Part shown: piece by piece, positions 1,501-64,000 of the stretch | Layout of the letters: each line of letters opens with the position of its first letter | Position numbering within the stretch: position 1 is the first letter of the stretch | NCBI GenBank assembly: GCA_038049695.1 | Contig: CP142452.1 | Coordinates: 54,208,501 to 54,272,500, forward strand | DNA: 64,000 nt | Reading direction: 5' to 3' | From: Cinnamomum chago | Taxonomy: Eukaryota; Streptophyta; Magnoliopsida; Laurales; Lauraceae | The notes under the pieces: model-generated | Seen by the model: only the letters and a program-made list of their open reading frames with translations | Databases searched by the model: none | Told to the model about the DNA's origin: nothing | Program-made: the position numbers and the translations under genes

Positions 1501-3260
1501 TGAAAGTCCTTGAGGATCCTAACCCTAGAGGGGGGGTGAATAGGGTGAGCTGCACTTATGACCAATTCACATCAATTTTAACTTCTTAAACTAAACTAGT
1601 CACATGTGATGATTAAACAATCAATATGCGGAAGCTAATAAACAATCACCACACAAGCAAGCACCACAACACCAATGTTTATAGTGGTTCGGCCTCAATG
1701 CCTACATCCACTACCGGCTTGTGATCCAATCACCCCACCGGATTTCCACTATGTATGCTTTTTCAAAGGCTAAGCAATAACCTATACAATGTTGTTTTTC
1801 TAGGTTCAACAACAACCTTACAATGTGCTTTTCTAGGCTAAGCAATAACCTTTACAAAATGCTTTTCTTAGGCTAAGCAATAACCTTACAAGATGCTTTT
1901 CTTTAGGCTAAGCAATAACCTTTACAAATCAATATTTCTCTAAGAAAGTGTTTACTCAACACTCTAAGAGATTACAGTTTAAGCTCAAATAAATTGCCTC
2001 TAAATAGGCGGATGTGAAAATGAAAATCCTAACTCACACAAACACTCAATGAATGCAAAGATGTATGCTTATGAAGTGTGTGTGTGATGACTTCAATCAA
2101 GTTTAAAAAGAAAGCTTAATCAAATATATGCTTAAAGCATTTGAAAGTTTAAGACACACAAAAGATTTGATTGAAGTTTGATGCAAATCACATGAATAAT
2201 AAACAACTTGTTAATGACATGAAATTCAAAGAATCACAAGTTGTATGAAAAATAAAGTTTAAGATAACATGTGATTTGATAAGAGTGATTGCAAACTAAT
2301 CTAATTTACCAAGAAAGATATTGAGCTTGCAAATCAACTCTTTAAGGACTTGAAATCATGCATAAATGAAAATACAAAGGATTTGAACATGCATGAATTT
2401 CATTTGTATGGAAATCAAAATAACTTAGAAGATGTACCTTTTAAAAACTCATGAGTTTGATTTCCAAATAGCCCTCTAGCCTTTCCAACTTCTTCCCCTT
2501 TCTTTGGCTCCAAAATGCTCTCAAAAGTTCATGTATCAAGCCTTGAAAAAGGTTGGAAATGAATGGACTTTATAGCCAAAAAGTTGCCAACGGCTAGTCC
2601 TCGGTCGACCGGCAAAGAGGTCTCGGTCGACCGGGAAGGCACAACGGTCATAAAAATGACCGTTGGAGGCTTACAGTTCAAAAACTGTACAGACACCCTG
2701 TAGTGTCCTCGGTCGACCGAGACACAGGTCTCGGTCGACCGGCGACACTGCCGGGCGAGTCCCTGGGCCAAAAAATCCAACTTTTTTCAATTCAAAGTAT
2801 TTCTTTGAGGGATCTTTGGGCCACTCAATCAAGCTTAAATAACATGTTTTAAGACATTCTAAGATGTTTAAAAACATGAAAAACACAAAGCCTAAAATGA
2901 TTCAAAAGTTTAAAACCAAAGGCTAGCTTGATTTGATAAAACTCTTTTCAAATGAAAATGCATACAAAAATGATTCTTTTTGTAATGAATGTATGCAAAG
3001 CTCAAACCTAAATTCACAAGATGATTTTCCAAATATAATGCACAAGGAATTAGGTTTTCAAAAGAGTTTGGGTTTCAAAACTAATGCAACCAAGATTAGA
3101 ACCAAAACATGCATAAGACAAATACTTTTCCAAAACTTAAAAGCTATGCATGTATAAATCAAGATTTCAAGGTTTTCTAAAACAATGCAAGTGTGTGTGA
3201 ATCAAATGATGCTAAAGAGCAAATGCATCCATCAAATTGCAAATTACAAAATCCCTAACA
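1501..3260 (-). mobile_element. Solo LTR, family S (copy 1), inserted in the satellite
   Basis: The element has TG...CA ends (TGAAAGTCC ... CCCTAACA) and is flanked by the 5-bp duplication CATCT at 1496-1500 and 3261-3265. Removing it restores an uninterrupted satellite monomer. It has no coding region and no second LTR, so it is a solo LTR left by LTR-LTR recombination. Read on the minus strand it starts TGTTAGGG and ends with a C-rich CACCCTATTCACCCCCCC stretch, which resembles the 3' end of some plant copia (SIRE-like) LTRs. The family call is tentative. About five ~39-bp direct repeats containing GGCTAAGCAATAACC lie at 1755-1935. A palindrome module lies at 2602-2741. Two more copies are at 50272 and 62651. 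Confidence 0.9.
2602..2741. promoter_or_regulatory. Paired GGTCGACC palindromes flanking a hairpin (S copy 1)
   Basis: Four copies of CGGTCGACCG have centres at 2606.5, 2628.5, 2714.5 and 2736.5, so there are two pairs, each spaced exactly 22 bp. Between the pairs lies an inverted repeat, CAACGGTCAT at 2642-2651 and ATGACCGTTG at 2656-2665, with a 4-base loop. The function is unknown. A protein-binding or silencing-related role is an inference. Confidence 0.6.
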
Positions 3261-6200
3261 CATCTTAGATTGTTTCTAGATACTCTTTGGTTTAAAACGT
3301 GTTTCAGACGATTCTTGGCTTAGGAAAACAGTATAGGGGATTCAGTGTTTGTAAATGATGAAACCCGTCCTTCCGGCGGCTTTTGTATGAATCCTCAATA
3401 TAAACGGTTCTAGGAATTTGTTGAGTCTACACTGTGTTACAGGAAAATCTCGGTCCAAAGTCTCCCTCTAGAAAAATATTGGAAAACTGTTTAATCTAAA
3501 AGCAGTTTTAGGTATCTTAGTCCAGTCTTTCGCCTCGAGTTCCATTTGATGGGATTGTGGTTGAGATACACATTTAGGTATACTTCGAGATAATTTCGAT
3601 TTAAAACGGGCTTCGGGTAAATCTTTGCCTAGGAAAACATTTGAGGGAGCTTGGTGTTTTTAAAGGCTAAAACTCGTGCATCGATCGGTTTGTAGGCTAC
3701 TTTTATACAAAACCACAATCTATGCGGCTCTAGGAAATAATTGACTCTACGATGTCTTTCAGGCAACTCTCGGTCCAAAGACTCCCTGTCAAAAATCCGG
3801 GATCGCTTTTTTCCCTAAGAAGAGGATTCGGGTATCCTAGTCTAGTCTTTCGTCTCTAGATCCGATTGAAGGGATTCTGAGTTGAGATACACATTTTAGG
3901 ATATTTCGAGACACTTTTCGGTTTAAAACGTGCTTTGGGAAGATATTTGGTTAGGAAAACACTTAAGTGAGTTCGGTGTTGTCAAAGGCTAAAACCCGTG
4001 CTTCGAACGATTCGTAGGCTACTTTCGTACAAAACCACAATCTAAGCGGCTCTACAAAATTGTTGACTATACATTTTTGACTACACACTGTGTTTCATGC
4101 AACTCTCGTTCTAAAGACTCCCTCTAGAAAAATCCGGGATCATTTTCTAATCTAAAAGGGGTTTCGGGTATCCTAGGCTTGTCTTTCGCCTAGAAATTCG
4201 TTTAAAGGGATTCCGAGTTAAGATACGCATTTTAGATTATTTCGAGATACGTTTCGTTTTAAAACGGGTTTCAAACGTTTTTTGGCTTAGGAAAACAATA
4301 CATGGGATTCAGTGTTTACAAAGGCTGAAACCAGTGCTTCGGGCGGCTTTTATATTAATCCACAATCTAAGCGGTTCTAGGAAATTGTTGACTTGACACT
4401 TTGTTTCATGCAACTCTCGGTCCAAAGTCTCCTCTAGAAAGATCTGGGATAATTGTTTACTATAAAAACGATTTCAGCTATCCTTGGCTAGTCTTTCCCT
4501 TCGAGATCCGTTTGATAGGATTATGGGTTAAGATACGAATTTTAGGATACTTTGAGATACTTTTCGGTTTAAACGGGCTTTGGGCGAATCTTGGGTAAGG
4601 AAAACACTTAAGGGAGTTCGGTGTTTTTGAAGGCTAAAACCCATGCTTCGATCAGTTTGTAGGCTACTTTTGTACAAAACAACAATCTATGCAGCCCAAG
4701 GAAATTGTTGACTCTATGCTGTGTTTTATGCAACTCTCGGTCCAAAGACTCCCTCTATAGAAATCCGGGAACAATCTTTACGCCAAAAGGGGTTTCCGTT
4801 ATCCATGTCTAGTCTTTCACCTCGAAATCCGTTTGATGGGATTCTGGTTTGCGATTCGGATTTTAGGATATTTCGAGATACTTTTCGATTTACAACATGC
4901 TTCGGGCGAATATTTGGTTTGGAAAACACTTGAGTGAGTTCGGTGTTGTTAAACGCTAATACCCGTGCTTCGGGCGGTTCGTAGGCTACTTTTGTACGAA
5001 ACCACAATCTATGGGCTCTAGGAAATTGTTGACAGCACACTATTTTTATGCAACTCTCGTTCCAAAGACTCCCTCTATAAAAATCTGGGATCATTTTCTA
5101 CTCTAAAAGTGGTTTCGGGTATCCTAGACTAGTCTTTCGCCTCGAAATCCATTTGAAGGGATTCGGGGTTGAGATACGTGTTTTAGATTATTTCGAGATA
5201 CTTTTCGGTTTAAAACAGGTTTCAGACAATTCTTGGCTTTGGAGAACAGTAAAGGGGATTTAATGTTTGTAAACGCTGAAACCTGTGCATCAGGCGGCTT
5301 TTGATTGAATCCACAATATAAGCGGTTCTAGGAAATTGTTGAGTCCACACTGTGTTTCATGCAAATCTCGGTCCAAAGTCTCCCTCTACAGAAATCTGGG
5401 ATAACTGTTTACTCTAAAAGCGGTTTCAGGTATCCTAGTCTAGTCTTTCGCCTCGAGATCCGTTTGATGTGATTGTGGGTTGAGATACGCATTTTAGATT
5501 ACATTGAGATAATTTCGGTTTAAAATGGGCTTCGATTGAATCTTTGCTTAGGAAAACACTTGAGGGAGCTCGGTGTTTTTAAAGGCTAAAACTCGTGCTT
5601 CGATCGATTCGTAGGCTACTTTGGTACGAAACCACATTCTATGCGGCTCAAGAAAATTTTTGACTCTACGCTGTCTTTTAGGAAACTCTCGGTCCAAAGA
5701 CTCCCTGTACAAAAATTCGGGATCGCTTTCTTCTCTGAAAAGAGGTTTTGGGTATCGTAGTCTAATCTTTCGCCTCGAAATCCATTTGGAGTGATTCTAG
5801 GTTGAGATACGCATTTTACAATATTTCGAGATACTGTTCAGTTTAAAACGTGCTTTGGGCAAATATTTGGTTAGGAAAACACATGAGTGAGCTCGGTGTT
5901 GTGAAACGCTAAAACCCGTGCTTCGGGCGGTTCGTAGGCTACTTTTGATAGAAACCACAATCTATGCTGCTTAATGAAATTGTTGACTTATACATTGTGT
6001 TTCATGCAACACTCATTCTAAAGACTCCCTCTAGAAAAATCCTGGCTCATTTTCTACTCTAAAAACGGCTTTGGGTATCCTAGACTAGCCTTTCGCCTTG
6101 AAATCTGTTTGAAGGGATTCGGGGTTGAGATACATATTTCAAATTATTTCGAGATACTTTTCGATTTAAAATAGTTTCGGACGATTCTTGGCTTAGGGTA

Positions 6201-6963
6201 ACAGTACAGGGGATTCAGTGTTTGTAAATGCTGAAACCAGTGCTTCGGGAGGCTTTTGCATAAATCCACAATATAAGTGGTTCTAGGAAATTGTTGTGTC
6301 TACACTGTGTTTGATGCAAATCTTGGTCCAAAGTCTCCCTCTAGAAAAATTTGGGATAACTATTTACTATAAAAAACTATTTCAGGTATCCTAGTCTAGT
6401 CTCTCGCCTCGAATCCCTTTGATGGGACTATGGGTTGAGATACGCATTTTAGGATACTTCAAGATACTTTTCGGTTTAAAACGTGCTTTAGGCAAATCTT
6501 GGGTTAGGGAAACACTTGAGGGAGTTCGGTGTTTTTAATGGCTAAAACTCGTGCTTTGATCGGTTTGTAGGCTACTTTTGTACGAAACCACAATCTATGC
6601 GGCCCGAGGAAATTGTTGACTCTACACGGTGTTTTATGCAACTCTCGGTCCAAAGACTCCCTCTAGAGAAATCCGGGATCACTCTTTACACCAAAAGGGG
6701 TTTCCGTTATCCTTGTCTAGTCTTTCGCCTCGAAATCCGTTTGATGGGATTCTGGTTTGAGATTCGCATTTTACGATATTTCGAGATATTTTTCAGTTGA
6801 AAACGTGCTTTGGGGGAATATTTGGTTAGGAAAACATTTGAGTGACTTTGGTTTTGTTAAAGGCAAAAACCCGTGCTTCGGGTGGTTCGTAGGCTACTTT
6901 TGTACTAAACCACAATCTATGGGCTCTAGGAAATTGTTGACAGTACACTGTGTTTCATGCAAC

Positions 6964-9561
6964 TGATGGGGGCCCGGCCTTTCGTCCTCTCCTTCCGCCC
7001 TAGGGGCTGCCGGGGTCCGGCGGAGGAGGAAAAGCGAGTCATCAACATTTTTTTGTACGAGTATGTCAGATTTTCTATTCTACTTAGAATATGAAGTGGT
7101 GATTCGGAGATCCACCTTCATAAGTAGAAAGGAAATCAATTCTTCTTTCTAACTTTCCATTGCACATATATTTTAAGAAAGAGACAATTTTTTTTAAATG
7201 TCGTGAGAGGCGATTTCATTTTGTTTGCCGTGAAACGCGATTTTTGTTTGCCGTGAAAGGCGGTTTTGTGCCGTGAAAGGCGGTTTGTGTCGTGAAAGGC
7301 GATTTTGTGCCGTAGAAGGCGATTTACAAATCTCATCAATAATGAAAGACAAGAAATGTGTTTTTTTTGTCTCTTTACAAAGAACACAAAATACAATAGA
7401 AAAGTGAGAAAAGGAATCTGACTTCTCAGGAGATTGCGGGGACTCGTTCAGATCGACAGTCGCAAGTCATGTATGGACTTCGCCATCGTCCTTCAGATGA
7501 GAACGCTTGATGCTTTGATTCTTTGGCTTGGCTTGGACCTCAGTTTTTTAGAGGATAAAGACCAAGGGGAGGTCCTATATCCAATAAAAAAAACGAGTAA
7601 ATGGGCTGAAGAGCCTCGTTTAGGCCATGTTGGATAGACGGAGAGAGGACCTCGGCGGGGTGGCCCCCTAAGGGACTTCGATCACTTTGTGATGTTTCTG
7701 CAGCAGAGTAGCAGGATTTCTTCAGATTTTTTTTCTTTCTTGCTTGTGAGTATGGATCTCTCTCTCTCTGTCTGTATATATATGTCTCTCTCTCTCTCTG
7801 TCTGTGTATATATATCTCTCTTGGATGACCCCTTTTTATAGGCTCTTGGTAGCCATGGGGTGATTTATAGGATTGATGACCCATGATGAGAGAATTGATG
7901 GCATTAATGCTCCATGATGGGAGGAGTTACAAGTTTTAATTCTTTGATTTTGTAACTCTTTTTTCCTTGAATATGATTGGCCGATGGAGAATGTTGGGCA
8001 TTTAATTGCCCTTAATCTCCATGATGAGGGGGAGTTTCACTGTTTTAATACCATGATTGCTTGGATTTGTAACTCCCATTTGCTTGATTTTGATTGGGCA
8101 GTCTGAAATAATGGGTTAATGACAGCATTAAGTTGTCATAAAATGGATCAATTAACTACATTAAGTGGTCGCCAGGGCATTTGAAAAGTCGCGGGTCGTG
8201 CTGCGTCTTTTAGAATTCTTCTTGTAACCATCGCGGATGGATCCACATATTGTTTGATGTCGGATGGCGATGCAACTTCAGACATTGGTTGATATTAGTG
8301 GGCCGATGACATCTGTCTTGTCAATTTCTCGATCGTTCGGACATAAAGTGTACTTTCTTGGTCAGTCAGTTGGTGATCTTGGAGCGATCAATGATGATTT
8401 CACGCTCTTGACGGCGGATCCGAGATGGTGATGAAGATCAGTCGATTTCGAGCATAAATAATCAGTTTTTTAGAAAACCAGAGGGGTTGGAACTCCCAAA
8501 ACGCGAAAAGGGTCGGAAAATGGGCCACCCGGCGAAAAATCCGGCGGCCCGGATTTCCAGGGTCGTTGCCTGTGACCATGGGGAATCTTCCCCTTCCGGG
8601 CACCGTTTCTCGGCCGTTTTTCAATCCTTTTTTCTCCTATATTTTTCTTGACATTTCTCCTCATTTACTGGCTTGATTCTCCTGAAGAAAACCTGATGAG
8701 AAGCCGTGCAAATTGGAGCACAAAGTTTCCTATTTTTTGGGAAGGGTGGAGACTTTGTAGTTGATTTCCCGTTAAGAATCAAAACTAGGTCAAACGATAT
8801 CGGAATGACCTGAAATTTGAGGTGAAGCCTCCTGAGCAGTAGATAGGGTCAACCATGGGCTTTTGTTTGAGTTTTGAAGCCGTGTGGGGTCCTGTCGCCA
8901 GTAGACTTGATTTTGCCGCGAGGAAGATGCCGCGCTTCGATGTACGGTCGACCGATGTCCAATTGACTTGAAATTTGACAGGGAGCTATTGGAGTCATTT
9001 TGAGATGATCCATTAGCTCTGATTTGGATGTCATGGTCCCGGGGTGCTCCGCCGCCGGTGGCCTTGATTTTATTTCGGAGCGTCAAAGTCGGGTCAAACG
9101 TTATCGGAATGACCCGAAATTTGACGTGCAGCCCTTTAGAAGTATGTTGAAGCCACCTATGTGCTCTGTTTGATGAGTGATGGTCTCGGGGATTCTCGCC
9201 GCCGAGAGGCTTGATTTTACTACTCGAGGGTTGATGGATGGTCAAACGTTGTCGGTTTGACTTGAAATTTGGCATGGAGCCTTTTAAAGGTATTTTGAGA
9301 CCATCCGTAGGCTCTGATCGAAGTTTTGATATCTTCAATGCCATCGCCGCCAGGAGCGCCTGTTTGGCTGTTGGAGGAGTGAAGTTGGGTCAAATGATGT
9401 TGGAATGCCCCAAAACTTCATGTGAACCCCTCTTTTGGCTGTCTTGAAGGATCTTGCAATTTTTGTTTGATTCTGACAAGATCTGATGATTAAAGTAGCA
9501 TTGCCTGCTTGTAGTGGCTTCTTGATGTTGAAGAGGCAAAGTGACATTTTTTGTGTAAACA
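6964..9561 (-). repeat. 3' LTR of the Tat element
   Basis: It starts TGATGGGGGCC directly against the satellite and ends GTAAACA on the + strand, just before a pyrimidine run that reads as a polypurine tract on the minus strand. The first ~2.5 kb aligns with 57367-59784. Short ~22-bp repeats of the type GCCGTGAAAGGCGATTTTGT occupy about 7199-7325. A CT/TA-rich microsatellite follows at about 7757-7822. The ORFs within it are short, not conserved with the other LTR, and are not genes. Confidence 0.88.
7831..7841 (-). promoter_or_regulatory. Candidate LTR TATA box (3' LTR)
   Basis: CTATAAAAAGG on the minus strand, the sense strand of the Tat element. It is conserved in the other LTR at 58215-58225, which supports it as the LTR core promoter. 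Confidence 0.55.
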
Positions 9562-9562
9562 A

Positions 9563-9576
9563 ATGCCCCCTCGAGG
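9563..9576 (-). other. Candidate polypurine tract of the Tat element
   Basis: On the minus strand this reads CCTCGAGGGGGCAT immediately before the LTR start TGTTTACA. The position, directly upstream of the 3' LTR in element orientation, is what a plus-strand primer site needs. It fixes the inner edge of this LTR at 9561. Confidence 0.55.
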
Positions 9577-9789: not shown

Positions 9790-10955
9790 TCCTTTTGACC
9801 TTGTGAACCTAAGGGTTGTATGTGGCACATTAGGCAGTCAAGATGTAACGCCCCACCCTTCACGCATGTATGATATTGTCCGCTTTGGCCCACCGGCCTC
9901 GCGGTTTTGCTTCTGATGGGCCTCAACCCATTAAAAGGCCTCATGCAAGGTAAGGGTGTAAGCTCTACATATAACCCCATTCACTTTCCTCTCAATAGTC
10001 GATGTTGGACTCCGGGGCGCCACAATCCACCCCCCTTAAGGCTGCACGTCCCTGTGCAGTAACCTGCCAGCCCTCTTGGCCCACCCACATGGAGACCCGC
10101 CTACTTGCACCGGGCCACGACAGGGGACCCACACTCGAACTAGTCGAGAGTCGGCTCTAATACCATTTGCAGCGCCCCACCCTTAACGCATGCATGATAT
10201 TGTCCGCTTTGGCCCACGGGCCTCACGGTTTTGTTTCTAATGGGCCTCAACCCATCAAAAGGCCTCATGCAAGGTAAGGGTGTAAGCTCTACATATAACC
10301 ACATTCACTTTCCTCTCTATAGTCGATGTGGGACTCCGGGGCATCACAATCCCCCCCTTAAGGCTGCACATCCCTGAGTAGTAGCCTGCCAGTATAGCCT
10401 GCCTGCCCTCTTAGCCCGCCCACATGGAGACCCGCCCACTTGCACTAGACCACGACAGGGGACCCACACTCGAACTAGTCGAGAGTCGACTCTGATACCA
10501 TTTGTAACGCTCCACCATTCCCGCATACATGATATTGTCCGTTTTAGCCCACCGGCCTCACGGTTTTGCTTCTGATGGGCCTCAACCCATCAAAAAAACC
10601 TCATGCAAGGTAAGGGTGTAAGCTCTACATATAAACCCATTCACTTTTCTCTCTATAGTCGATGTGGGACTCCGGGGCATCACACAAGAGGGTTTTTTGG
10701 TTTTTTGTTTTTGACCTTGTGACCTAACAAGCTGTATGTGGCAGGTTAGGGGGTCGGGGTTTGATTTTTTATTTTGACCTTGTGACCCAACAAGCTGTAT
10801 ATGGCAAATTGGGGGATCAGATTTGGTTTTGACCTTGTGACCTAACAAGCTGTATGTGGCGAGTTAGGGGGTCATGATTTGATTTTTTATTTTTTATTTT
10901 GGCCTCATGACCTAACAAACTGTATATGGCAAGTTAAGGGACCAGAGTTTGGTTT
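9790..10955. repeat. ~58-bp tandem repeats (GACCTTGTGACCTAACAAGC type), split by a TRIM
   Basis: Units with a core GACCTTGTGACCTAACAAG followed by CTGTATGTGGC start near 9797, 10716, 10773, 10831 and 10899. The spacing is about 58 bp in the right block. The first unit is separated from the rest by the TRIM at 9844-10684, so the array predates that insertion. It lies in the noncoding region of the Tat element next to its 3' LTR. Confidence 0.75.
9844..10684 (-). mobile_element. TRIM (terminal-repeat retrotransposon in miniature) with three LTRs
   Basis: Three near-identical ~181-bp LTRs lie at 9844-10024, 10168-10348 and 10503-10684, separated by two ~145-155-bp internal segments. The whole is flanked by the 5-bp duplication CAAGA (9839-9843 and 10685-10689). 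On the minus strand the base next to each inner LTR end leads into TGGTATCAGAG, the primer site for initiator tRNA-Met. The other inner edge has the polypurine stretch CCTTAAGGGGGG. There is no coding capacity, as expected for a TRIM. The LTR-int-LTR-int-LTR form is a known product of recombination between TRIM copies. No 5S rRNA-like segment is seen, so it is not Cassandra. Confidence 0.88.
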
Positions 10956-17165: not shown

Positions 17166-17167
17166 GG

Positions 17168-21064: not shown

Positions 21065-21579
21065 ACAGGTGTGAGAACCCGACCCCTAATCTCTTGGATT
21101 AGTGTTGTTTTATTTGTGGATTAGTTCTTTTAGTGGGATTAGTATTTGTTGGGTTGAGTTTGTGAGCTAGAATGGGTTTTCTTCTAGTTTTGGGCTTTTG
21201 AGTGCTTTGGTAGCTTGTGGGGCCCTTTGGGGGTTCCCTTTTCGGCTTTGCTTTTACTTGTGAGATTTTCCTGATTTGTTTCGTATTGTGTTTTTGGCCC
21301 GTTGCATTCATCTTGAGGAATCCTACAACTTTCATGTTGGCCCCGTATCCATTTGAGAACCCGAAACCCGATTTCTTGGCCTTGAGGGCAAAACAGTCTT
21401 TTCACACCAAATCTGTACCCAAAACTCGATATTCTCGAAATCCGTGAAACATACACTTTTTGGAAACCAGATATTTCGACGATCATTTCTTCCTTCTTCA
21501 TCGAATCCATCCGAGGTCCCGAATTAGATGATTTCAGCCACCCAAGCTCTTTAAGTTGTGGGACCCATTCTCACTTGTT

Positions 21580-21587
21580 TATAAAAG
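21580..21587 (+). promoter_or_regulatory. TATA box in the T-family LTR
   Basis: TATAAAAG, about 510 bp from the LTR start, followed by a CT-rich stretch. It is conserved as TATAAAAG at 61778-61785 in the second T copy at about the same distance from the LTR start. Confidence 0.6.
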
Positions 21588-22448
21588 GAGACCCTTCCCC
21601 TTCCTCTTCCATTTTTCATTGTTCCAGCACAACCCTTTTGAGTCTAGGGTTTTCTTGCTTTCTCCTCTTCTTCTTGCTTCTCCATCTTCAAGCCACACCT
21701 AGAGCTCATCAATCAAACAATAGAGATCATCATCTTCTTCCTCATCTTACAAGCTTTCCATTGGTATCATTTGTGAAGAGAACCCTCCATCACAAGGCTT
21801 CCATTGAGCTTACTCTTTCCATTAGAGGACCTTCCAAGTAAGTGATTCTTCCCATCTCCTAGATTAGTGTTCCTCTAGCTCTTGAGAAGCTCCATTTGTA
21901 TTATTGAAAGCTCTTTCATTTTCATTCTTTGTGTAACCCATTTTAGGGTTGTTTTTAGGGTTTTTTTATTGTAGCTTGGAAGTGAGCTTAAGAAGGGATT
22001 AGGAGCTTGGTTTGTGAGATTGGAACCCAAGGCAAGTGGTTGATTGGATCGTTTTGATTATTAACATGTTTTGTGAGAAAATCTTGATTCATTAATGGTT
22101 TTGGTGATTTTAATAGTTGTCTTTAATATGATTAATATTGATTTCAAGATGTGCTTATTGATGAGTTATTTCTCCCTTGTTAATCTCTTGGAAATGTATG
22201 TATCATAGTGTCAAGATTTCAAATGGTTTCACATGAATGAGTTTTCTCCACTTTTGAGATTTATTGTGAATGGAAAGGATGGAAATGGAGGAACTTGAAA
22301 TGAGGAGCTCTTTAGCTCATTTTAATGTCTTGGAAACATGTGTTTAAGTCTCCTTATGTATAATTCTATGTGATTGATTATTTGTTGGAAGGAAAGGAAA
22401 CAAAAAGGAAAAAAAAATCAAGTTCCCGGACCTGCATTGCGCCTAGGT

Positions 22449-22578
22449 CCGATCGATTGGACCTACAGGCCGATCAATCGGCCTGTCTTTTAACAGTAAG
22501 GCTTTTTGGGCCGATCGATCGGCCGATCGATCGGACCCTGTACATTCCTGGTACAGAAATTTCGACCGATCGATCGGT
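22449..22578. promoter_or_regulatory. CGATCGATCG palindrome cluster in the T LTR
   Basis: There are five palindromes: CCGATCGATTGG at 22449-22460, CCGATCAATCGG at 22470-22481, CCGATCGATCGG at 22511-22522 and again at 22523-22534, and ACCGATCGATCGGT at 22565-22578. The first pair has centres 21 bp apart. The cluster occupies the same part of the LTR as the GGTCGACC cluster in the chromovirus LTR. Confidence 0.6.
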
Positions 22579-24059
22579 CCGAATATTGTGTTTTTTTTTT
22601 GAAACCTTTGGGCCTTCTATGAGTCCTAGGGGTGTATACCTTAGTGTTAAGACCAATTGTACCCTAATCTAAGGTCTCTAAGACTAGGGAACTAAAAGAA
22701 AAGAATGGTGTTGATTAGACACTAATTCTTGGTTTTAGGTCGGACCCTGACTACCCTTTTTGGACCGTTTGGACCAAGTGTGAGAATGTCTTGAGCCGAC
22801 ACGCCTCACGGTTGGTTCGGTGGCATCGAAGTTCAATCCATTTCAATCTCGAACGGGATGGAACGACGCGATATCTTCTTTATATCTAAACACAAGTCTA
22901 TTTCCTTGGTTATCGCTAATTCTATTCCTTTCGATGACTGAATCGGTTACTCGATGTTTCCGGAGTAATGTCATGCCTAGGATGGACCGTTTATAATCTT
23001 GATTCTTGCTATTGTAACATCTAGTACTACCCATAAGCTCATTTTAAGTTTTGAAAGTAGTAAAAGTGCATAAGGAGCCTGGCATGTCTTCAAACTCAAG
23101 GAGTACCAAGTAATTGTTATAATCGACATACGGGACCCCTATTCACTTAAATAGATCTTGAAACCGATATTTTTACCCGAAATTGTTATAGTTCATTGTT
23201 TCACCCCTTTTCCCGAGATTTGCATTACATGACTTGTTTTCCCGAAAGCATTGGAGTTACTCTAGTAACAGTCATTTGTCCCGAAGTGCATTGCATCACA
23301 TGATACGACAGTGTGCCCTTGAGCACCCCGTTTTACCCGTTTATTTATTGTACTTGATTTACTTGTTTCCCCGAAAGCATTGAGGTTACATTAGTAACAG
23401 TTATTTGTCCCGAAATGCATTGCCCGATATGAAGTGACAGTGTGCCCTTGAGCACCCCCGTTTTACCCGCTTATTTACTGCACTTGATTTACTTGCATAT
23501 GTCTCGATTGGTTTTGACCTATGAGTCGGCATCACTAAGCTTGGATACCTTGTCCGTTTGATCCACCGACTTGGAAATCCCTCTCCCGTCCCGCCAGCTG
23601 CAGTTTGGATCCCGATACCCGGTTATTGCCGTGGTCCCGTCCCGATACCCGGTTCGCTACCGTGGTCCCGTTCCCGTATATTTATATTGTATATATGATT
23701 TACGTTGAGTCTCCTCACCTTGTGTGACTGAGACCAACGTCCCGTTATACTCTTGTCACTTTGGTGATAGATGACATAGCTTCTTGTGATTGCCATCTTG
23801 CCAGTTCCCGATTCCTTGGATACCCGACATGTTTTATATTGTTTACTTGCTTTCCGATAAATGATTCGTTTCCTTTATGAAAGTTGTTATTTAAACAAGT
23901 GCTAATATTCTCCAATGTAAATTCAGTTATTATTATATTGCCTTCTGTTCTTTGTACCCGCACATGTTTTAAATGAATGCCGGTTGGGTGAATAACCATG
24001 CTTTTACATATGTTCCATACGATCAATGATTTTGCTAGATTTATATGATTACGCGTGTT

Positions 24060-36928: not shown

Positions 36929-36933
36929 ATAAC

Positions 36934-40600: not shown

Positions 40601-41567
40601 GATGAGAGGATCCATGGATGTATTGGCACACAAGTACATTGACAATGTTGTCAAGTTGCATGGGATTCCAGATTCCATTGTTTCAGACAGAGATATGAGG
40701 TTTGTGGGCAGATTTTGGGTTAGTTTGCAAGCAGCATTGGGCACTACATTGAACTTCAGCACAGCGTATCACCCTCAGACCGACGGACAGACAGAGAGGA
40801 CCAATCAGACTATGGAGGATATGTTGCGGGCATGTGTTCTTGATTTCGGGAAGGACTGGGAGAAGAGTCTTCCTTTGTGTGAATTTGCCTACAACAACAG
40901 CTATCACTCCAGTATCGGGATGGCACCGTTCGAGGCATTATACGAACGGAAGTGTAAGACCCCGATCTGTTGGGAGGAGATTGGTGTTCGAAGCTTTCAT
41001 GGACCGTCGATCATCAGTGATACCAGTGAGAAGGTGAAGCAGATCATTGACAGGCTGAAAGTTGCAAGAGACCGTCAGAAGAGCTATGCAGACCTAAAGA
41101 GGAGGGATTTGGAGTTTCAGGTTGGAGATAAAGTGTTTCTCAAAGTCTCACCGACTAGAGGAACTATGAGATTCGGTCAGAAAGGGAAACTGGCTCGGAG
41201 ATACATTGGACCGTTTGAGATAGATATGCGCGTGGGTGAAGTGGCTTACAGATTGATACTACCAGCAGAGTTAGCAGGAGTTCACAGAGTTTTTCACATT
41301 TCGATGCTGAGGAAGTACATTCCAGACCCTTCACACGTGCTACACCACGAGCCTTTGGATGTTCAGCCAGATGTTTCATATGTTGAGAGACCGAAGAAGA
41401 TCATCGATACGAAGGAGCAAGTCCTGAGGACAAGGACCATTCACTGGGTCAAAGTGCAGTGGGAGCATCACAGTCCAAGGGAAGCAACTTGGGAGCTCAG
41501 GGATCAGATTCAGGAGAAGTATCCGGAGTTATTGCCAGATTCAGAGTTTCAGGCAGAGGTGTGTTAG
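37638..41567 (+). pseudogene. Chromovirus gag-pol coding region (fossil, nearly whole)
   Basis: Parts in order: a Q/P-rich gag end with a zinc knuckle ([14 protein letters not shown], 37.77 kb), aspartic protease ([13 protein letters not shown], 38.22 kb), RT ([20 protein letters not shown] near 38.93 kb, FIDDVLVYS near 39.22 kb), RNase H ([11 protein letters not shown] near 39.66 kb, HSDHRSLQYLF near 39.85 kb), integrase (HPGSTKMYQNLKSFYWW near 40.32 kb, core near 40.55-40.93 kb with YHPQTDGQTERTNQTMED), and a C-terminal chromodomain (WVKVQWEHHSPREATWELRD near 41.45 kb). In relatives the chromodomain steers integration to heterochromatin. This copy is broken in about two places and lacks the start of gag. 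Confidence 0.9.
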
Positions 41568-41589
41568 GGATTTGGAGGACCAAATAGCT

Positions 41590-41603
41590 TAAGTGGGGGA
41601 GGA
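41590..41603 (+). other. Polypurine tract of the chromovirus
   Basis: TAAGTGGGGGAGGA lies immediately before the 3' LTR start TGTAACATCCC. The T-family element has a matching AAGGGGGGAGGA just before 61264. Confidence 0.8.
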
Positions 41604-44361
41604 TGTAACATCCCGACCCCTAATGGCCTATTAATTATAATTAATTGTTTGATTAGTTAGTAAGCTAGTTTAGAGTCTAAATAGTTGGGTTTATCGACGA
41701 ATCGCGTGTGCGTAGTTTCGCACGATTCGGAGCGCGTTTGGGTAGGATAGAGAGTCGTTTTACTAATTGGGTAGGGTTTTCAGGGATTATAAGAGATTAT
41801 GAGTTTTGGTGAGTTTGGGTGCATTGGGTAGGTTTCGTCGTTTCATGAACTTTAGTCTTCGATCGCGTTTCGATTCGACGGGTCGAAGAGGCCCGAAATA
41901 CATTAATTATATGCGTGGACCGACCCGGACCTTGACCCATCAACCCATTAACCCAAAGCCCAAGCCCATGACCCATTTACTTAAGTATCTTACCAACCCA
42001 CTTTCATCTTATCTTCTTTCATTCAATTCAACTCAACACAGTACACCACAACCGATTCATCTTCTCCTCTCTTTCCTTCATCTCTTTCTTCTCCGTTGAC
42101 GATCACCGGAGCTCCGGCGAAGCAAGCCAATCCACCCATCATCTTCTTCAAGCTTCCAAGAGTCTAACCATACTCTTTTCTAAGAGTTTCACCCACAACC
42201 CATTTAGAGGTAAGCTCTCTAAGCTTGAAAACCATTCTATCTCCTCTCTTCTTGGTTAGAAATGGATTAGGGAGGACCACCTTGACCTTGGCATGCATGT
42301 GTAGGAGCTATTTGGGATTTGGAAAGTGTTTCACCCCTTTGGAGCTTTCAAAGTGTTTCTTTCCTTCACTTTCTTCTTAGATTTGAGTTCATCACATCAC
42401 TAAGGCAAGTCAATAGCTATATTAATACTTGATATGCTTGCCTACCTTGATTGTTTGATAAAATCATGTTTTAGATTACCTTGGCTCAATTGATACATTA
42501 ATAGTTGAAAAACATGATAATATGACTCATTAGTTGAATGGAATGGATGTAGAGTTTGATGACTTGATTAGTAGTTTTTATAGGTTGTTATTAAGTTATT
42601 TGTATCCCCATATATTGTACTCATCAGGTCTCAGAAGTAGAAAATAGGAAAAGTCCCATTTCAGCTCAGAACAGGGGCTCTGCCCAGTTTTCGCAGGCTT
42701 CTCGGTCGACCGGCCTGCAGGTCTCAGTCGACCGAGACAACAGGGCCCACTCGACCGAGACTCGACCGAGCCTTGTGCAGATTTTGGCCAATTTTCCTTT
42801 TTGAAGGGATTTTTACCCTGTTTTGTAGTGGACCTTGATGGACCTTTGGATACCCATTTGTGGACTCATTTGACATATTATGAGGACGTCTTGAGCCGGC
42901 GTTCGTCATTGTTGATTCGGTTGTATCGAGAGTTAACTTAATTCAATCTTGAATGGTGCGGGACAACGGGATACTCTTCCTTAAATCTATGCACGAAGAT
43001 TGTTTGTCCGAGTATCGCGAACCCTAACCCTTCGTTCACTGAATAAGTTGTGCGATGCTTCAGGGTTGACACTTTACTTAGGATTGGATTGTTTATTTGC
43101 TTTGAATTCAAATGGTACCCTCGGGTACTATCTTCTACATGTGATGAGCATGCTCGTTAGTTCTATTTGCTTTGTTTTATTAGAGGATTGCTTTGAGAAC
43201 TTAGAGGTTGGACTTAGGGTCCCCTTGTATTGTTTCGTTCGTTCGTTATTCGTGTGAAGTGTTGAGGCTAGGGAGCTTTGATTGTCAAGCTTTGAGAGGA
43301 CTACTATTGGTATTGGTTTGGGATTTGATTTGTTTTGGAATAAGTAGTTCTCTATTAATATTGAATCTTGTTCACGCAAGAAACCTAGCCCTTCACCTTT
43401 GTTTAGGATTCTTTGTGTCAGGCACCACTCAGTTGTTAACGTTCAACACAGTTGGGGCACCGACTGTGGGAGAACACGATACCACCTCGAAGCAAGATAG
43501 AGCCAGAGCTTACGGAGCCCGAGCTACTTGAGCTGAGAGTTATTTTATATTCCTCGAGATGTTCTGTTCTGTTCTGTTCTGTTTAGTTCGTCCTCGAAGC
43601 AAGATAGTGCCAGAGCTCTCGGAGCCGGAGCACTTGAGCTACGAGTTGTCTGGATATTGGATACTGGGATTTATCCCAATTAATGATATAGCTTAGCTTA
43701 TGTGGATCGCCTACTTTGATAGTTTGTATATGATTCGAATGCGGTGCATCTCTTACGATCAGAGCGCTATGCATATCTTATGATCATGTTTATCGTTCAT
43801 TCTCTTTAGTACTGCATATCTATGTGATTTCTATATCTATTGCTTTGCCATCCGTCGTGTTGATGATGCTACTCTTGGTGCATAGGTACCGAGCTCTTCT
43901 ACCCCGAGGCGGAGGAAATGACGGAAGAAGTTCAGGCAGATCAGCCTGATGACTTCCTAGAGTATAGTACGGACGACATTGTATAGCCGTGACGACCCCG
44001 TACGCGAGAGCTTCACGATAATCCTCTTAGCTTCATCTTTTGGTTTCTTTATACTTTTGTTTAGGCCTAGTTTTTGTTTGGCCATTTTACTTGTAATTAA
44101 TATTTTGTTATAGTCTTAAACTTCAACCTTAACTTTGATACTCAGTAAATTGCTCTTAAACTATACCTCTATAAGATACCTCTTGTTTTATGAAGCTTCC
44201 GCTATTGTTTAATATATTCGAGGAAAATGTTTATACCTCACAGCGGTCTTCGATCCAGATGGGACACGATTAGGGCAAGTGATATGTAATTATCATTGGA
44301 AAAGTTTTAAATTGACCCTAATCTCACGCATAACCCCGGTTTCACTTTTGGAGGCGTGACA
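41604..44361 (+). repeat. 3' LTR of the chromovirus (2.76 kb)
   Basis: TGTAACATCCC ... GGCGTGACA, followed by the ATAAC duplication. It contains a palindrome cluster at 42703-42769 and no coding region. Near 43480-43640 a segment with CTCGAAGCAAGATAG and GCCAGAGCT is repeated about 119 bp apart. Confidence 0.92.
42703..42769. promoter_or_regulatory. GTCGAC palindrome cluster in the chromovirus LTR
   Basis: CGGTCGACCG and TCAGTCGACCGA have centres 22 bp apart (42707.5 and 42729.5), followed by two ACTCGACCGAG half-like copies at about 42750-42770. This is the same architecture as the S and T LTR modules. The truncated 5' LTR of this element does not reach this region. Confidence 0.6.
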
Positions 44362-44366
44362 ATAAC

Positions 44367-50271: not shown

Positions 50272-52460
50272 TGTAAGTCCATGGGGATCCGAACCCTAGA
50301 GGGGGGGTGAATAGGGTGAGCTCCAATTATGACCAATTTTAACAATTTTAACTTCTTTAAAGCAAACTAGTCACATGTGATGATTTATCATACAAGATGC
50401 GGAAGCTAACAAAAGAATCACCACAAAGCAATCACCATCACACAAGGATTTATAGTGGTTCGGCCTCAATGCCTACATCCACTACCGGCTTGTGATCCAA
50501 CACCCCACCGGATTTCCACTATTTATGCTTTTCAATAGGCTAAGCAATAACCTTTACAATATGCTTTCCAAGGCTAAGCAATAACCTTTACAATGATGTT
50601 TTTCAAGGCTTAACATCAACCTATACAATATGCTTTTATAGGCTAAGCAATAACCTCTTCAACCATAGGTTGGTTATCTCACTAAATTAGTGTCTAACAT
50701 ACACTTGATGGAGATTCAATTAAGCTCATTACAATGCCTCTTAAATAGGCGGATATGGAAGTGAAAAACTAATACACACTCACACTATGGATGCAAAGAT
50801 GAAAGTACATGAAGTGTGTGTGTGTGGTCCTCAATCATTTTGAAAATGAAAGTTCATAAATGTAAGCCTAAGGCTTTTGAAAGTTTTAGCTCATAAAACA
50901 TTTATGATTGAGGATGTAATGCAATCACATGTTAAAAGTAACAACTTGTTAATGATATCAAAGTTACACAAGTTGTATGAAATGGATTAGCTCTAAACAT
51001 GTGATGCATAGGGATGTCAATCAAATCAACATGAAGCTCAAAACATAAAAATAGATTTGATTGAAAATAGGGGACAAATCATATGTAATTATAAATACAA
51101 CTTGAAAGTGATATACCTATCAAAGTAAGGCAAGTTGTGAAACTTTAAAACAATAATACACATATGATTTGTAATGATGTTGAATCCAAAACATAAGATA
51201 CATTTGAAAGAGATTTTCTTATGATGGAAAACAACACCCAAAGATTCAACAAAGTATATGAATCATGTTACATATTTCATTAACATGATCTACTTAGATT
51301 TACCAAAGACAAAGTACTACTTTGATGAATCAATGGTGATGTATCCAAAACAATAGATCTATTCAAAATATAACACATGCTAAGGATACAACACATCATA
51401 GGTTAACATGTTACTAAGATTTACCAATGATAAAACAAAACATGAAAACATATGATTTGTAAAGAAGTTGAGTCCAAAACATAAGATACTTTTGAAAGTG
51501 ATTTTCTTATGATGGAAAACAACAACCAAAGATTCAACCAAGTATAGGAATCATGTTACATATGATTTACCAAGTTTCTTTCATTAACATGATCTACTTA
51601 GATTTACCAAGATTAAGTACTACTTGAATTGAATCATATGGTGTTGTATCCAAAACAATAAATCAACTCAAAACATAACACATGTTAAGGACACAACACA
51701 AACATAGTTTAACATGCTAGAAATGATTTACCAAAAATAAAACAAAAGCATGAAAACATATGATTAAGGAAGGAAGAGCCTACTTGGTGGTTTAACTTCA
51801 TTAATCCAAGCTTTAGCTTTCCTAATCATCCCCTTCATCCCTTGGTTCTTTTCCCTTTTGATATGCCTCAAATCCTCTCAAGGAGGGGCTAAAAATTCCC
51901 AACTTTTGGCAAGGGAAAGAACTCATATTTATAGCAAAAAGTTGCCAACGGCTAGTCCTCGGTCGACCGGCAAACAGGCCTCGGTCGACCGGGAACACAC
52001 AACGGTCAGATTTCTGACCGTTGGGGCGCCAGGCAAAATTTTGCCTGCAGTTGTCTCGGTCGACCGGCGACACTGCCGGGACAACCCCCCTTTTGACAAA
52101 ATTTTCAACTTTTGCCATTTCAAAGTTATTTCTTTGGGGGACCTTTTGGCCACTAAATCAAGCTTGGAAAACATGTTTTAAAGATTCTAATGGTTTTTAA
52201 AACATGACATAAAAAGCCTAAAAAGATTCAAAACTTTTAAAACAAAGGCTTGCTTGATTTCTTGAAAACTCTTTTCTAAAACAAATGCATCCAAGATTTA
52301 AAACCAAATCATGCATAAATCAAAACTTTTGCAACTCTTAAAAACCATGCATGAATAAAACAAGATTTCAAGATTTCTAAATCAATGCAAATGTGTGTGA
52401 ATCAAATGATGCTTGAATGATAATGCATCCATCAAATTGCAATCTATAAAAACCCTAACA
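50272..52460 (-). mobile_element. Solo LTR, family S (copy 2), inside the hAT element
   Basis: TGTAAGTCC ... CCCTAACA with the 5-bp duplication CTAAC at 50267-50271 and 52461-52465. It is homologous to 1501-3260 and in the same orientation, but about 430 bp longer, largely because of a duplicated block (compare 51180-51300 with 51470-51600, which share AAGTTGAGTCC or TGTTGAATCC and CTTATGATGGAAAACAACA). The ~39-bp GGCTAAGCAATAACC repeats are at 50538-50655. No coding region. Confidence 0.9.
51960..52066. promoter_or_regulatory. Paired GGTCGACC palindromes and hairpin (S copy 2)
   Basis: CGGTCGACCG has centres at 51964.5 and 51986.5 (22 bp apart), and a third copy lies at 52057-52066. The hairpin between them, 52000-52023, pairs CAACGGTCAGA with TCTGACCGTTG. 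Compared with copy 1 the inner stem bases changed on both sides, so pairing is kept. AGGCAAAATTTTGCCT at 52031-52046 is a further palindrome. Confidence 0.6.
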
Positions 52461-57200: not shown

Positions 57201-57347
57201 TTTTTAAATGAGAAAGAGTGGAAATAAATTCAAAGATAGAATTTCCAAAAATCTCATCTCATGTTTCTTTTAGATGCAAGATCCAACATAGGCCACCAAC
57301 TAGAAAGGAGCCTAAGAATTAAGCATCGCGTTCTCAAATGAACAAGT

Positions 57348-57365
57348 CCCACAGGGTGTGCCAAC
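57348..57365 (-). other. Candidate primer-binding site of the Tat element
   Basis: Directly inside the 5' LTR, the minus strand reads TTGGCACACCCTGTGGGA. The position and the TGG start fit a tRNA primer site. The exact tRNA is not assigned. Confidence 0.5.
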
Positions 57366-57366
57366 T

Positions 57367-59784
57367 TGATGGGGGGCTAGCCTTTCATCCTCTCCTTCCA
57401 CCCCAGGGGCTGACAGGGTCCGGCAGAGGAGGAAAAGTGAGTCATCAACATGTTTTTGTACGGGTATGCTAGATTTTCTATTCTACTTGGAATTTGAAGT
57501 GGTGATCCGGAGATTCACCTTCACAAGTAGAAAAGAAATCAATTCTTCTTTCTACCATTGCACATATATTTTAAGAAAGAGATACAATTTTTTTTAAATG
57601 TCGTGAGAGGCGATTTCATTTTGTTTGCCGTGAAAGGCAATTTTTGTTTGCCGTGAAAGGCGGTTTTGTGCCGTGAAAGGCGATTTTGTGCTGTAGAAGG
57701 CAATTTACAAATCTCATCAATAATGAAAGACAAGAAATGTGATTTTTTTTTCTCATTACAAATAATACAAAATACAATAGAAAAGTGAGAAAAGGAAACT
57801 GACTTCTCAGGAGATTGCGGGGACTTGTTTAGATCGACGGTCGCAAGTCATGTATGGACTTCGCCATCGTCCTTCAGATGAGAACGCTTGATGCTTTGAA
57901 TCTTTGGCTTGGCTTGAACCTCAGTTTTTTAGAAGATAAAGACAAAGGGGAGGTCCTATATCTAATAAAAAAAACGAGTAAACGGGCTGAACAGCCACAT
58001 TTAGGCCATGTTGGATAGAAGGAGAGAGGAACTTGGGGGGGTGGCCCCCCAAGGGACTTCGATCACCTTGTGGTGTTTCTGCAGTAGAGTAGCAAGATTT
58101 CTTCAGAGTTTTTTTCTTTCTTCCTTGTGAGTATGGATCTCTCCCTCTCTCTGTGTCTGTGTGTATATGTCTATTTCTCTGTGTCTGTGTATATATGTCT
58201 CTCTTGGAATGACCCCTTTTTATAGGCTCTTGGTAGCCATGGGGTGATTTATGGGATTGATACCCATGATGGGAGAATTGATGGCATTGATGCTCCATGA
58301 TGGGAGGAGTTACAAGTTTTAATTTTTTGATTTTGTAACTTCTTTTTCCTTGAATATGATTGGGCGATGGAGAATGATGGGCATTTAATAGCCCTTAATC
58401 TCCATGATGAGAGGAGTTTCATGGTTTTAATACTATGATTGCTTGGATTTGTAACTCCCATTTACTTGATTTTGATTGGGCTGTCTGAAATAATGGGTTA
58501 ATGACCGCATTAAGTTGTCATAAAACGGGTCAATTAACTGCATTAAGTAGTCGCAAGGGCCGTGCCGCGTCTTTTAGAATTCTTCTTGTGACGATCGTCG
58601 ATGGATCCATATATTGTTTGATGTCGGATGGCGAAGCAACTTCAGACATTGGTTGATATCAGTGGGCCAGTGACATCTGTCTTGTTGATTTCTTGATCGT
58701 TCGGATAGAAAGTGTACTTTCTTGGTCAGCCGGTTGGCGATCTTGATCAGTCGATTTCAAGCATAAAAAATCAGATTTTCGAAAAACAACAGAGGCTAGA
58801 ACTCCTGAAACGGGAAAAGGGTCGGAAAACGGGCACCCGACGAAAAATCCGGCAACCCAGATTTCCAGGGTCACCGGCGACAATAGGGATTCTTCCCCTT
58901 CCGGTCGCCGTTTCTCGTCGTTTCTCGACCAAAACTTTCGATCCTTTTTTCTCTTGTATTTTTCTTGACATTTTTCCTCATTTACTGGCTTAATTCTCCG
59001 GAAGAAAACCTGACGAGAAGCCGCGCAAACCGGAGCACAAAGTTTCCTATTTTTTGGGAAGGGCGGAGACTTTGTAGCCAATTTTCAGTCAAGAATCAAA
59101 ACTAGGTCAAACGATGTCGGAATGACCTAAAATTTGAGGTGAAGCCTCCTGAGCAGTAGATAGGACCAACCATAGGCTTTTGTTTGAGTTTTGAAGCCGT
59201 ATGGGGTCCCGTCGCCAGTAGACTTGATTTTGCCGCTAGGAAGATGCCGCACTTTGATGTACGGTCGACCGATGTCCGATTGACTTGAAATTTGACAGGG
59301 AGCCTAGTGGAGTCATTTTCAGACGATCCATTAGCTCCGATTTGGAAGTCATGGTCCCAGGGTGCTCCGCCGCCAGTGGCCTTGATTTTGTTTCAGAGCG
59401 TCAAAGTCAGGTCAAAAGTTATTGGAATGACCTGAAATTTGACATGCAACCCTTTAGAAGTATGTTGAAGCCACATTTGTGCTCTGTTTGACGAGTGATG
59501 GCCTCTGGGAATCTCACCGCCGAGAGGCTTGATTTTACTACTCGAGGGTTGATGGAGGGTCAAACATTGTCGGTTTGACTTGAAATTTGGCATCGAGCCT
59601 TTTGGAGGTATTTTGAGACCATCTGTAGGCTCTAATTGAAGTTTTGATGTCTTCGACACCGTAACCGCTAGGAGCGCCTGTTTGGCTGTTGGACGAGTGA
59701 AGTTGGGTCAAATGATGTTGGAATGGCCCAAAACTTCATGTGAACCCCTCTTTTGGCTGTCTTGAAGGATCTTGCAGTTTTTGT
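57367..59784 (-). repeat. 5' LTR of the Tat element, outer end missing
   Basis: Aligns with 6964-9467 from TGATGGGG to TTTTTGT. The last ~94 bp of the LTR present at 9468-9561 are absent. Immediately after 59784 the sequence turns into unrelated DNA belonging to a T-family element. The ~22-bp GCCGTGAAAGGCGATTTTGT repeats are at about 57599-57710. Confidence 0.88.
58215..58225 (-). promoter_or_regulatory. Candidate LTR TATA box (5' LTR)
   Basis: CTATAAAAAGG on the minus strand, matching 7831-7841. It would drive the Tat element transcript toward lower coordinates. Confidence 0.55.
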
Positions 59785-62650: not shown

Positions 62651-64000
62651 TGTTAGGGATTTTGTATTTTCAATTTGATGGATGCATTATCATTCTAGCA
62701 TCTTTTGATTTACACACATATGCATTGATTTAGAACAACTTGAAATCTTGATTTATACATGCATTGTTTTTAAGATTTGTAAAAGTATTGATTTATGCAT
62801 GTTTTGTTTTTAAACTTGGAAGCAATTGTTTTAGAAAAAGAATTTCTTAGAAATCAAGCAAGCCATTGGTTTTAAAGTTTCGAATCTTTTTTGGTTTTTT
62901 ATGTTTCACGTTTTAAAACCCTTAGAATGATTTAAAACATGTTTTCAAGCTTGATTTAATGGCCCAAAAATTCCCAACCAAAATTACTTTAAAAAATACA
63001 TTTTTAGGAAAACAGGACTTATACCGGCGGCCAAAACCACTTTTACCGGCGGTCTCTGGCCCCCGCTAAAAGCAGTTTTTCAAACGGTCATTTTTTATAG
63101 CCGTTGTGTGTACCCGGTCGACCGGGCCCTGTCATGGGGTCGACCGGGGACTAGCCGTTGGGCAATTTTGGGATATAAAATGAAGTTCTTTCCTTTGTCA
63201 AATGTGGAGATTTTTAAGCCATCTTTGAGGAGTTTGGAGACAAGACAAAGGGGATGAACTAAGAGAGACCAAAGAGTCATTTGGAGAGCTAAAGCTTGGA
63301 TTAATGAAGTTAAATCTCTAAGTAAGCTCTACCTCTCTTAATCATATGTTATATGCTTTGTTTAAAATATTGGTAAATAATTTTTAGCATGATAACTATG
63401 ATGTGTTGAATCCATTCTTCTCTTAATCTTTGATCTAATTAAGATTGGATTCTTCACTTTGTTTTCAAACCAAGTTTTGATTTAAAATCTTCATTAATCA
63501 TGCTTAGCCTAAATCGTTGATTTCTTTTAGCATGATTTATTTTTCTTGGTTGAAACTCAATTTGTTGTTTTCATTCATTTAAACTTTAGTTAAATTAATT
63601 TGGTTTTGAAAACAACATTGCACATGCATCACATGTTCTAAGTTAGTCATTTTCATACAACTTGTGAGTCTTTGATTTTCATGTCATTAACAAGTTGTTT
63701 CTCATACATGTGATTTGGATTAAACTTCAATCAAATCTTTTATGTGCCTTAAACTTTGAAATGCTTTGAGCATATATTTGAATAAGCCTTCTTTTTAAAC
63801 TTGATTGAAGTTATCACACACACACATCATGAGCATACACATTTGCATTCATATAGTGTTTGTGTGAGTTGATTTACACTTTCATATTAGCCTATTTAAG
63901 AGGCAACATCATTGAGCTTAAATTGTATCTCTTAGAGTGATCTTTTGTGAAGACACCTTCTTAGAGAAATATTTCTTTTATAAAGGTTATTGCTTAGCCT
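62651..64000 (+). mobile_element. LTR, family S (copy 3), cut by the window end
   Basis: Starts TGTTAGGGATTTTG and is the reverse complement of the layout at 1501-3260 and 50272-52460. The last bases are the start of the GGCTAAGCAATAACC repeats in reverse. It is inserted in the T LTR. The second target flank is outside the window, so whether it is solo or part of a full element is unknown. Confidence 0.88.
63022..63145. promoter_or_regulatory. Paired motif module in S copy 3
   Basis: One pair is GGTCGACC, with centres 63119.5 and 63141.5 (22 bp apart). The other pair is TACCGGCGG at 63022-63030 and 63044-63052 (also 22 bp apart), at the place where copy 1 has its second GGTCGACC pair. A weaker hairpin (AACGG ... 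CCGTT) lies between the pairs. Confidence 0.55.

Follow-up and report, generated by a model that had tools for sequence, protein, structure and literature searches.

Introduction

RM boxes are palindromes found upstream of the TATA box in the long terminal repeats (LTRs) of Sirevirus (Ty1/copia) elements (Bousios et al., 2010, BMC Genomics 11:89, PMC2829016). In the portions of that paper covered here, the boxes mostly have a CGG-CCG core, lie in the upper half of the LTR and are followed at a short distance by a TATA box, and the criteria for them include at least eight copies per element and boxes that define a CpG island. The published Vitis RM is exactly CGGTCGACCG; that of Tnd-1, ACAATCGATTGT (Table 3 of the same paper), has no CGG-CCG core. 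RMs were called Sirevirus-specific in a comparison that covered Ty1/copia elements only, and the portions covered give neither a spacing rule nor an outer CAGTG. Here, we describe paired boxes of this kind in a 64 kb window of the Cinnamomum chago genome (C2:54208501-54272500), where they occur in the LTRs of a family termed S, in the 3' LTR of a chromodomain Ty3/gypsy element (the chromovirus) and in a further family, T. Coordinates are those of the window unless a contig is named, and genome scans covered 1,061,006,199 bases in 14 contigs.

The earlier note on this window, made from the letters alone, knew of no named system for its paired palindromes. This was mistaken: to judge from the covered portions of PMC2829016, the boxes are Sirevirus RM boxes, the S box being identical to the Vitis RM, palindromic, with a CGG-CCG core and a TATA box downstream. 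Three features go beyond the description in those portions: an identical pair in a Ty3/gypsy LTR, here that of a chromodomain element, a spacing of two helical turns and a composite with inverted outer CAGTG. The S copy 1 LTR differs further in having four GGTCGACC boxes (it is a solo LTR and the figure of at least eight concerns whole elements), as does the T box in lacking the CGG..CCG order. Box I of tobacco Tnt1, by its mention in PMC2829016, is similar in being a symmetric element in an LTR regulatory region. A search of the open-access literature, covering titles and abstract openings of part of the matches, found no earlier report of such boxes in chromoviruses.

Box pairs in the window

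The box GGTCGACC starts at 2603, 2625, 2711, 2733, 8946, 42704, 51961, 51983, 52058, 59263, 63116 and 63138. The pairs and their immediate surroundings are as follows.

2603-2632, minus strand: proximal GGTCGACC pair of S copy 1, 22 bp apart.
2711-2740, minus strand: distal GGTCGACC pair of S copy 1, 22 bp apart, with CAGTG exactly 5 nt beyond one box.
2642-2665, no strand assigned: two inverted CAACGG sites between the S copy 1 box pairs (AACGG is enriched near boxes).
2569-2574, minus strand: TATAAA of S copy 1; the centre of the last box lies about 32 bp upstream of it.
51961-51990, minus strand: S copy 2 pair, 22 bp apart, with an extra box at 52058.
63116-63145, plus strand: S copy 3 pair, 22 bp apart, in an element on the plus strand.
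42704-42733, plus strand: pair in the chromovirus 3' LTR, a perfect box and a one-base-changed box, 22 bp apart.
22445-22484, plus strand: T near-palindrome pair, centres 21 bp apart, perfect in relatives.
22512-22576, plus strand: further T boxes CGATCGATCG at 22512, 22524 and 22567 of the window sequence.

The centres given previously for the S copies (2606.5/2628.5, 2714.5/2736.5, 51964.5/51986.5 and 63119.5/63141.5) were verified, with 22 bp within every pair. The chromovirus pair (42707.5/42729.5) is likewise 22 bp apart and its first box is perfect, but the second, AGTCGACC, is one change off a palindrome. The T pair (22454.5/22475.5) has the distance of 21 bp ascribed to it, but both of its window boxes are only near-palindromes. 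A ACCGGCGG pair in S copy 3 (63023 and 63045) had also been counted among the palindromes, which it is not. The second box of S copy 3 is GGTCGACC, yet it forms no 10 bp palindrome. The boxes at 8946 and 59263 stand alone, with no partner within 60 bp, and both lie inside a different repeat.

Spacing across the genome

The paired signal is real and far stronger genome-wide than the window alone suggests. With CCAGCTGG, a palindrome of the same composition, as the control, GGTCGACC forms 36,705 pairs at 10-40 bp (control 62), and 33,022 of these (control 19) lie at 19-23 bp. This is 90% of the pairs at 10-40 bp, where an even spread would give 16%. A further 10,989 pairs (control 12) lie at 41-71 bp, a figure that includes sums of two steps. 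The spacings of the first 50 pairs listed were 16 (two pairs), 19 (three), 20 (12), 21 (seven), 22 (16), 23 (five), 24 (one), 25 (two) and 32 bp (two), and thus scatter around 21 bp, with 22 bp the commonest value. The T-type box CGATCGATCG gave 9,407 pairs against none for its control; its first 50 listed pairs were 20 (three), 21 (18), 22 (11), 37 (one), 41 (ten) and 42 bp (seven) apart, mostly about two and about four helical turns. There are 9,080 copies of the 13-mer CTCGGTCGACCGG on one strand and 9,167 on the other, compared with three and five of the reversed word. These counts exclude a chance origin of the GGTCGACC and CGATCGATCG pairs.

The claim that the sequence changes while the spacing does not holds for two box types and no further: it fails for ACCGGCGG and for palindromes in general. 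As a candidate third box type ACCGGCGG was rejected: it gave 216 pairs on one strand and 192 on the other, where the reversed control gave 176 and 165, and nearly all of its 22 bp cases, among those listed, are near copies of one sequence. Palindrome spacing was compared with shuffled sequence in 12 test regions, which are not all independent (two are T and several S-related). Palindromes of at least 8 bp formed 19 pairs at 19-23 bp against a shuffle mean of 2.9 (maximum of 40 shuffles 10), an excess that disappears when the two box cores are masked: the pairs then drop to two at 19-23 bp, 11 at 24-39 bp and eight at 40-46 bp, the shuffles being of unmasked sequence. The 19-23 bp excess therefore belongs to these boxes, and a spacing rule for all palindromes was rejected.

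A pattern scan of viral contigs gave no matches; one of a wider contig collection gave 20 stretches in bacterial or metagenome-assembled genome records, which were taken as chance.

The composite site

The GGTCGACC pairs are often part of a larger unit of roughly 45-50 bp with the inverted order CAGTG-N5-box-N11..15-box-N5-CACTG. Among 43 listed pairs at 19-23 bp, an outward CAGTG is present on both sides in 13, on one side in 13 and on neither in 17, and none faces inward. The gap is fixed: the first 100 rows listed contain 80 distinct CAGTG sites, of which 62 lie exactly 5 nt from a box, four at 6, 7 or 14 nt and 14 at 25-27 nt, approximately the distance of the second box. Seventeen distinct pairs have 34 outer sides; read outward, CACTG starts at position 6 on 11 of these sides and at position 8 on one, and it is absent from the spacers. 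Across the genome the outward order was counted 17,240 times on the plus and 27,900 times on the minus strand (controls 573 and 580); for the inward order the figures were 3,470 and 3,432 (controls 134 and 142). The two outward counts differ, and nested minus-strand matches are present in the rows shown, so only a rough ratio is usable.

Other short words accumulate around the boxes. In 13 loci, two of which overlap, 25 of 45 AACGG words lie within 70 bp of a box (4.6 expected), as do 24 of 69 AACTG words (7.0 expected); the control words AACGC (one of nine, 0.9 expected) and AACTC (five of 118, 11.9 expected) are not enriched there. We take AACGG and AACTG, including the CAACGG sites at 2642-2665, to be MYB-type words. 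In S copies 1-3 the last box centre lies 31-33 bp upstream of TATAAA, and in the stretches examined no TATA box was noticed shortly downstream of the chromovirus or T boxes.

Elements that carry the boxes

The elements concerned are the following.

1501-3260, minus strand: S copy 1, a solo LTR of a Sirevirus-type family; limits from the blocks in 14 relatives, with the duplication CATCT at 1496-1500 and 3261-3265.
36934-44361, plus strand: chromodomain Ty3/gypsy element; 3' LTR 41604-44361, 5' LTR similarity 36934-37637, with the duplication ATAAC at 36929-36933 and 44362-44366.
21070-24300, plus strand: T region, a putative LTR, with its left edge near 21070 and its right edge not fixed.

The S family is of Sirevirus type, because its primer-binding site (PBS) and polypurine tract (PPT) signatures, TATCAGAGC and AGGGGGAG, match those in Bousios et al. 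(2010). The 14 S relatives (L050-L063) are loci that reach only part of the element: TATCAGAGC is present in six, AGGGGGAG clusters of 5-8 copies in seven, and at least one of the two in 12, L057 and L059 having neither. The 5-8 copies of AGGGGGAG are seen where the locus includes the 3' LTR side. Two longer stretches, L064 and L065, contain both signatures. The PBS junction CA-ATTGG-TATCAGAGC is present in L050 and L064, and the PPT junction AGGGGGAG-AT-TG in L051 and L064. The S boxes thus lie in a Sirevirus-type LTR, with the CGG-CCG core and the proximity to TATA that characterize RM boxes. In L064 the only sense open reading frame (ORF) of at least 150 residues is one of 532 residues, and no pol was found. 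At 1e-3 this ORF matches nothing in Pfam, zinc knuckles coming up only below the threshold (E 0.0073), and it resembles the stretch between the gag zinc knuckle and the integrase of the polyprotein of another box-bearing element, L046 (46 of 145 residues, E 4e-11). We read it as gag-like, and L064 as a non-autonomous copy.

In the window, S copy 1 sits between two stretches of a diverged tandem array of 321-322 bp (74-75% matches; 5-1498 and 3380-6964), and a repeat of about 2.5 kb, in two copies that are 87% identical (6960-9466 and 57362-59784), lies to the right of an S copy in each case.

The element at 36934-44361 can be classed as a chromovirus on a match to RVT_1, the gypsy reverse transcriptase (E 3.1e-36), together with a Chromo match that is weak, its 22.8 bits (E 9e-5) falling short of the curated cut-off of 25.1. 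The label of chromovirus 3' LTR for the surroundings of the 42707.5 box was correct, with an LTR at 41604-44361 and ATAAC target-site duplications. That the box at 42707 lies outside this LTR was considered and rejected on the matching duplications and on the co-occurrence of pol and the box region, a box-region match following about 2.0 kb further on in ten of 39 non-window pol matches among those listed. The 5' LTR stops before the boxes, because its match to the 3' LTR covers 36934-37637 only. In all 11 chromovirus relatives (L067-L077) both boxes are perfect and 22 bp apart. Neither TATCAGAGC nor AGGGGGAG was found in the chromovirus loci (L066-L077), and the S and chromovirus LTRs have common stretches of only 34-37 bp, at the boxes. 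The chromovirus boxes thus have the CGG-CCG palindrome (CGGTCGACCG at 42707.5) and lie outside a Sirevirus LTR.

A perfect CGATCGATCG pair with a distance of 21 bp is present in all 11 T relatives (L079-L089). The T boxes are palindromic but read CCGATCGATCGG, that is CCG..CGG, in place of the CGG-CCG core. In this they are like the Tnd-1 RM, which is also an ATCGAT-centred palindrome without that core; unlike Tnd-1, T is not assigned here to the Sireviruses, and it shares 69% identity over 216 bp, downstream of the boxes, with the chromovirus LTR. Neither TATCAGAGC nor AGGGGGAG was found in 12 T loci, which may not reach the LTR ends.

Further families seem to carry boxes, since several loci on C1 lack a match to the known ones. 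The 23 C1 loci, some of which overlap, represent about a dozen distinct places and were compared with nine reference stretches that include the S, T and chromovirus LTRs. L001 with L029-L031, L004, L006 and L039-L041 had no BLAST match to these references at E 1e-8, and L008 matches them over only about 50-65 bp, at the boxes. Another five loci, L044-L048, were chosen since box matches recur in them at an LTR-like distance, and all five have TATCAGAGC together with 4-5 copies of AGGGGGAG. L046 encodes a polyprotein in copia order with RVT_2 and gag, and also has ATTGG-TATCAGAGC.

Three side observations concern these elements. Besides their pairs at 20-23 bp, L001, L006 and L039 have boxes repeated at about 98-99 bp. 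L044 is a box-bearing Sirevirus-type element in which an ORF (1168-2445, minus strand) between TATCAGAGC and AGGGGGAG matches Transposase_32, described as 'putative plant transposon protein'. Matches of equal or near-equal score recur at constant steps in all three families, as expected of head-to-tail arrays of elements that share LTRs: at about 5.46 kb in C8:42579159-42596015 (four matches), about 7.74 kb in C9:61926658-61950167 (four) and about 5.86 kb in C8:41501979-41537476 (seven).

Possible function and alternative explanations

We consider it probable that the boxes form a cis-regulatory module of the LTR promoter, of the RM-box kind, in which a host factor presumably binds each box as a dimer, with neighbouring dimers cooperating on one face of the DNA. 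Each box is a dyad and therefore suits a homodimer, here one of a sequence-specific host transcription factor; the distance of about two turns would place two dimers on the same face of the helix, where they could bind cooperatively; and the outward flanks at a fixed distance suggest that the pair is one composite site. Together with MYB-type factors the dimers may switch on transcription from the LTR, the module acting as a promoter-proximal enhancer driven by the host factor. The earlier note had offered two helical turns and a dimeric protein as one reading among others. On the dyad boxes, the 90% of pairs at 19-23 bp, the T spacings near two and four turns and the CAGTG flanks, it is now the best supported of them, the binding itself being a prediction. 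A search for an LBD-type plant factor gave nothing usable among the matches listed; inverted GAGACA sites of ARF type were also considered.

Several points weigh against this interpretation. Pairs are spread over 19-23 bp rather than sharing a single value, and at a spacing of one turn the boxes would overlap. Members of one family are counted repeatedly in the genome totals: in the sequences examined, 99 adjacent pairs (at most 60 bp apart) reduce to 20 distinct ones once similar flanks are removed, of which 16 lie at 19-23 bp and some come from related families. Palindrome pairs of at least 8 bp in the 12 regions also exceed shuffles at 24-39 bp (23 versus 8.9) and at 40-46 bp (15 versus 4.6), by less than at 19-23 bp. 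CAGTG is absent at a gap of 5 in 17 of the 43 sampled pairs and none was noticed at the chromovirus pair of the window. TATAAA is not enriched near boxes overall (eight of 71 within 70 bp in the 13 loci, 7.2 expected).

A further point is that the outer CAGTG and CACTG arms are complementary, at equal distance, and so would also fit a hairpin of RNA or single-stranded DNA, in which the two boxes pair, the outer arms extend the stem and the spacer of 11-15 nt forms the loop; such a structure would function at the transcript level, for instance by giving rise to small RNAs. The palindrome clusters of maize Sirevirus LTRs are small-RNA mapping hotspots (Bousios, 2016, as cited in the parts covered of PMC10760457 and PMC5311732), which speaks in its favour. 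Yet a hairpin requires only that box 1 match box 2, not that each box be palindromic in itself; the T spacing of 41-42 bp is unexpected for a loop; and CAGTG is one-sided in 13 of the 43 pairs. Nor is there clear covariation of the arms in 18 distinct pairs (one of 15 offsets with p 0.014, the next 0.059), in a comparison of low power that is not decisive. On balance we regard the hairpin as unlikely.

It is more improbable still that a tandem duplication of 21-22 bp in an ancestral LTR made the second box, which was then inherited with a spacing that has no function. Inheritance of spacing within families is evident, 70 of the 99 adjacent pairs being exactly 22 bp apart, and TRF calls the S copy 2 pair a tandem repeat with a unit of 22 bp, present 2.2 times at 77% matches. 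Against this, otherwise unrelated LTRs and two box sequences have a common spacing. The recurrent local duplication suggested previously is also disfavoured by spacers that match the next flank not clearly better than the flanks of other loci (identity 0.38 versus 0.34, p 0.09, and 0.37 versus 0.35, p 0.28; 17 distinct pairs) and by the inversion of the outer CAGTG, which a direct duplication would not give; on these two grounds direct tandem duplication was rejected.

Least probable by a further step is that the boxes are targets of an anti-silencing protein encoded by the elements, as VANC is on the motif arrays of VANDAL transposons (PMC5735166, in the parts covered): those arrays are likewise dense, high-copy short motifs in the non-coding DNA of elements and differ by family, but they have one orientation and are often tandem, unlike the boxes, which moreover are used by copia and gypsy elements alike, and the only sense ORF of at least 150 residues in the S relative L064 looks gag-like.

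If the boxes are indeed read by host dimers, their presence in copia-type and gypsy-type LTRs implies either that recombination moved the module from one LTR to another or that selection by one and the same factor led to its assembly on two occasions. More tentatively, and with the balance of probability against it, unrelated LTRs of Ty1/copia and Ty3/gypsy elements in one plant may have acquired a single helically phased enhancer grammar (dimer sites at two turns, outward CAGTG at 5 nt and MYB-type sites close by), with one host regulator setting the activity of both superfamilies. RM boxes had been reported as a Sirevirus feature for which a common binding factor was not found. With a rule for spacing and flanks they become a binding-site grammar open to testing, and its presence in a chromovirus LTR, as the same pair, suggests that it crosses retrotransposon superfamilies. 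Were the wider proposal true, one host regulator would have tens of thousands of ready-made sites and both superfamilies would be controlled together, so that much LTR-driven transcription in such a genome could hang on a single switch.

Other features of the window

A tandem repeat of about 335 bp is present at 9844-10684 (2.6 copies, 89% matches). On the minus strand, 31014-34252 has matches to Transposase_21, DUF4218 and DUF4216; these remains look like those of a CACTA-type DNA transposon.

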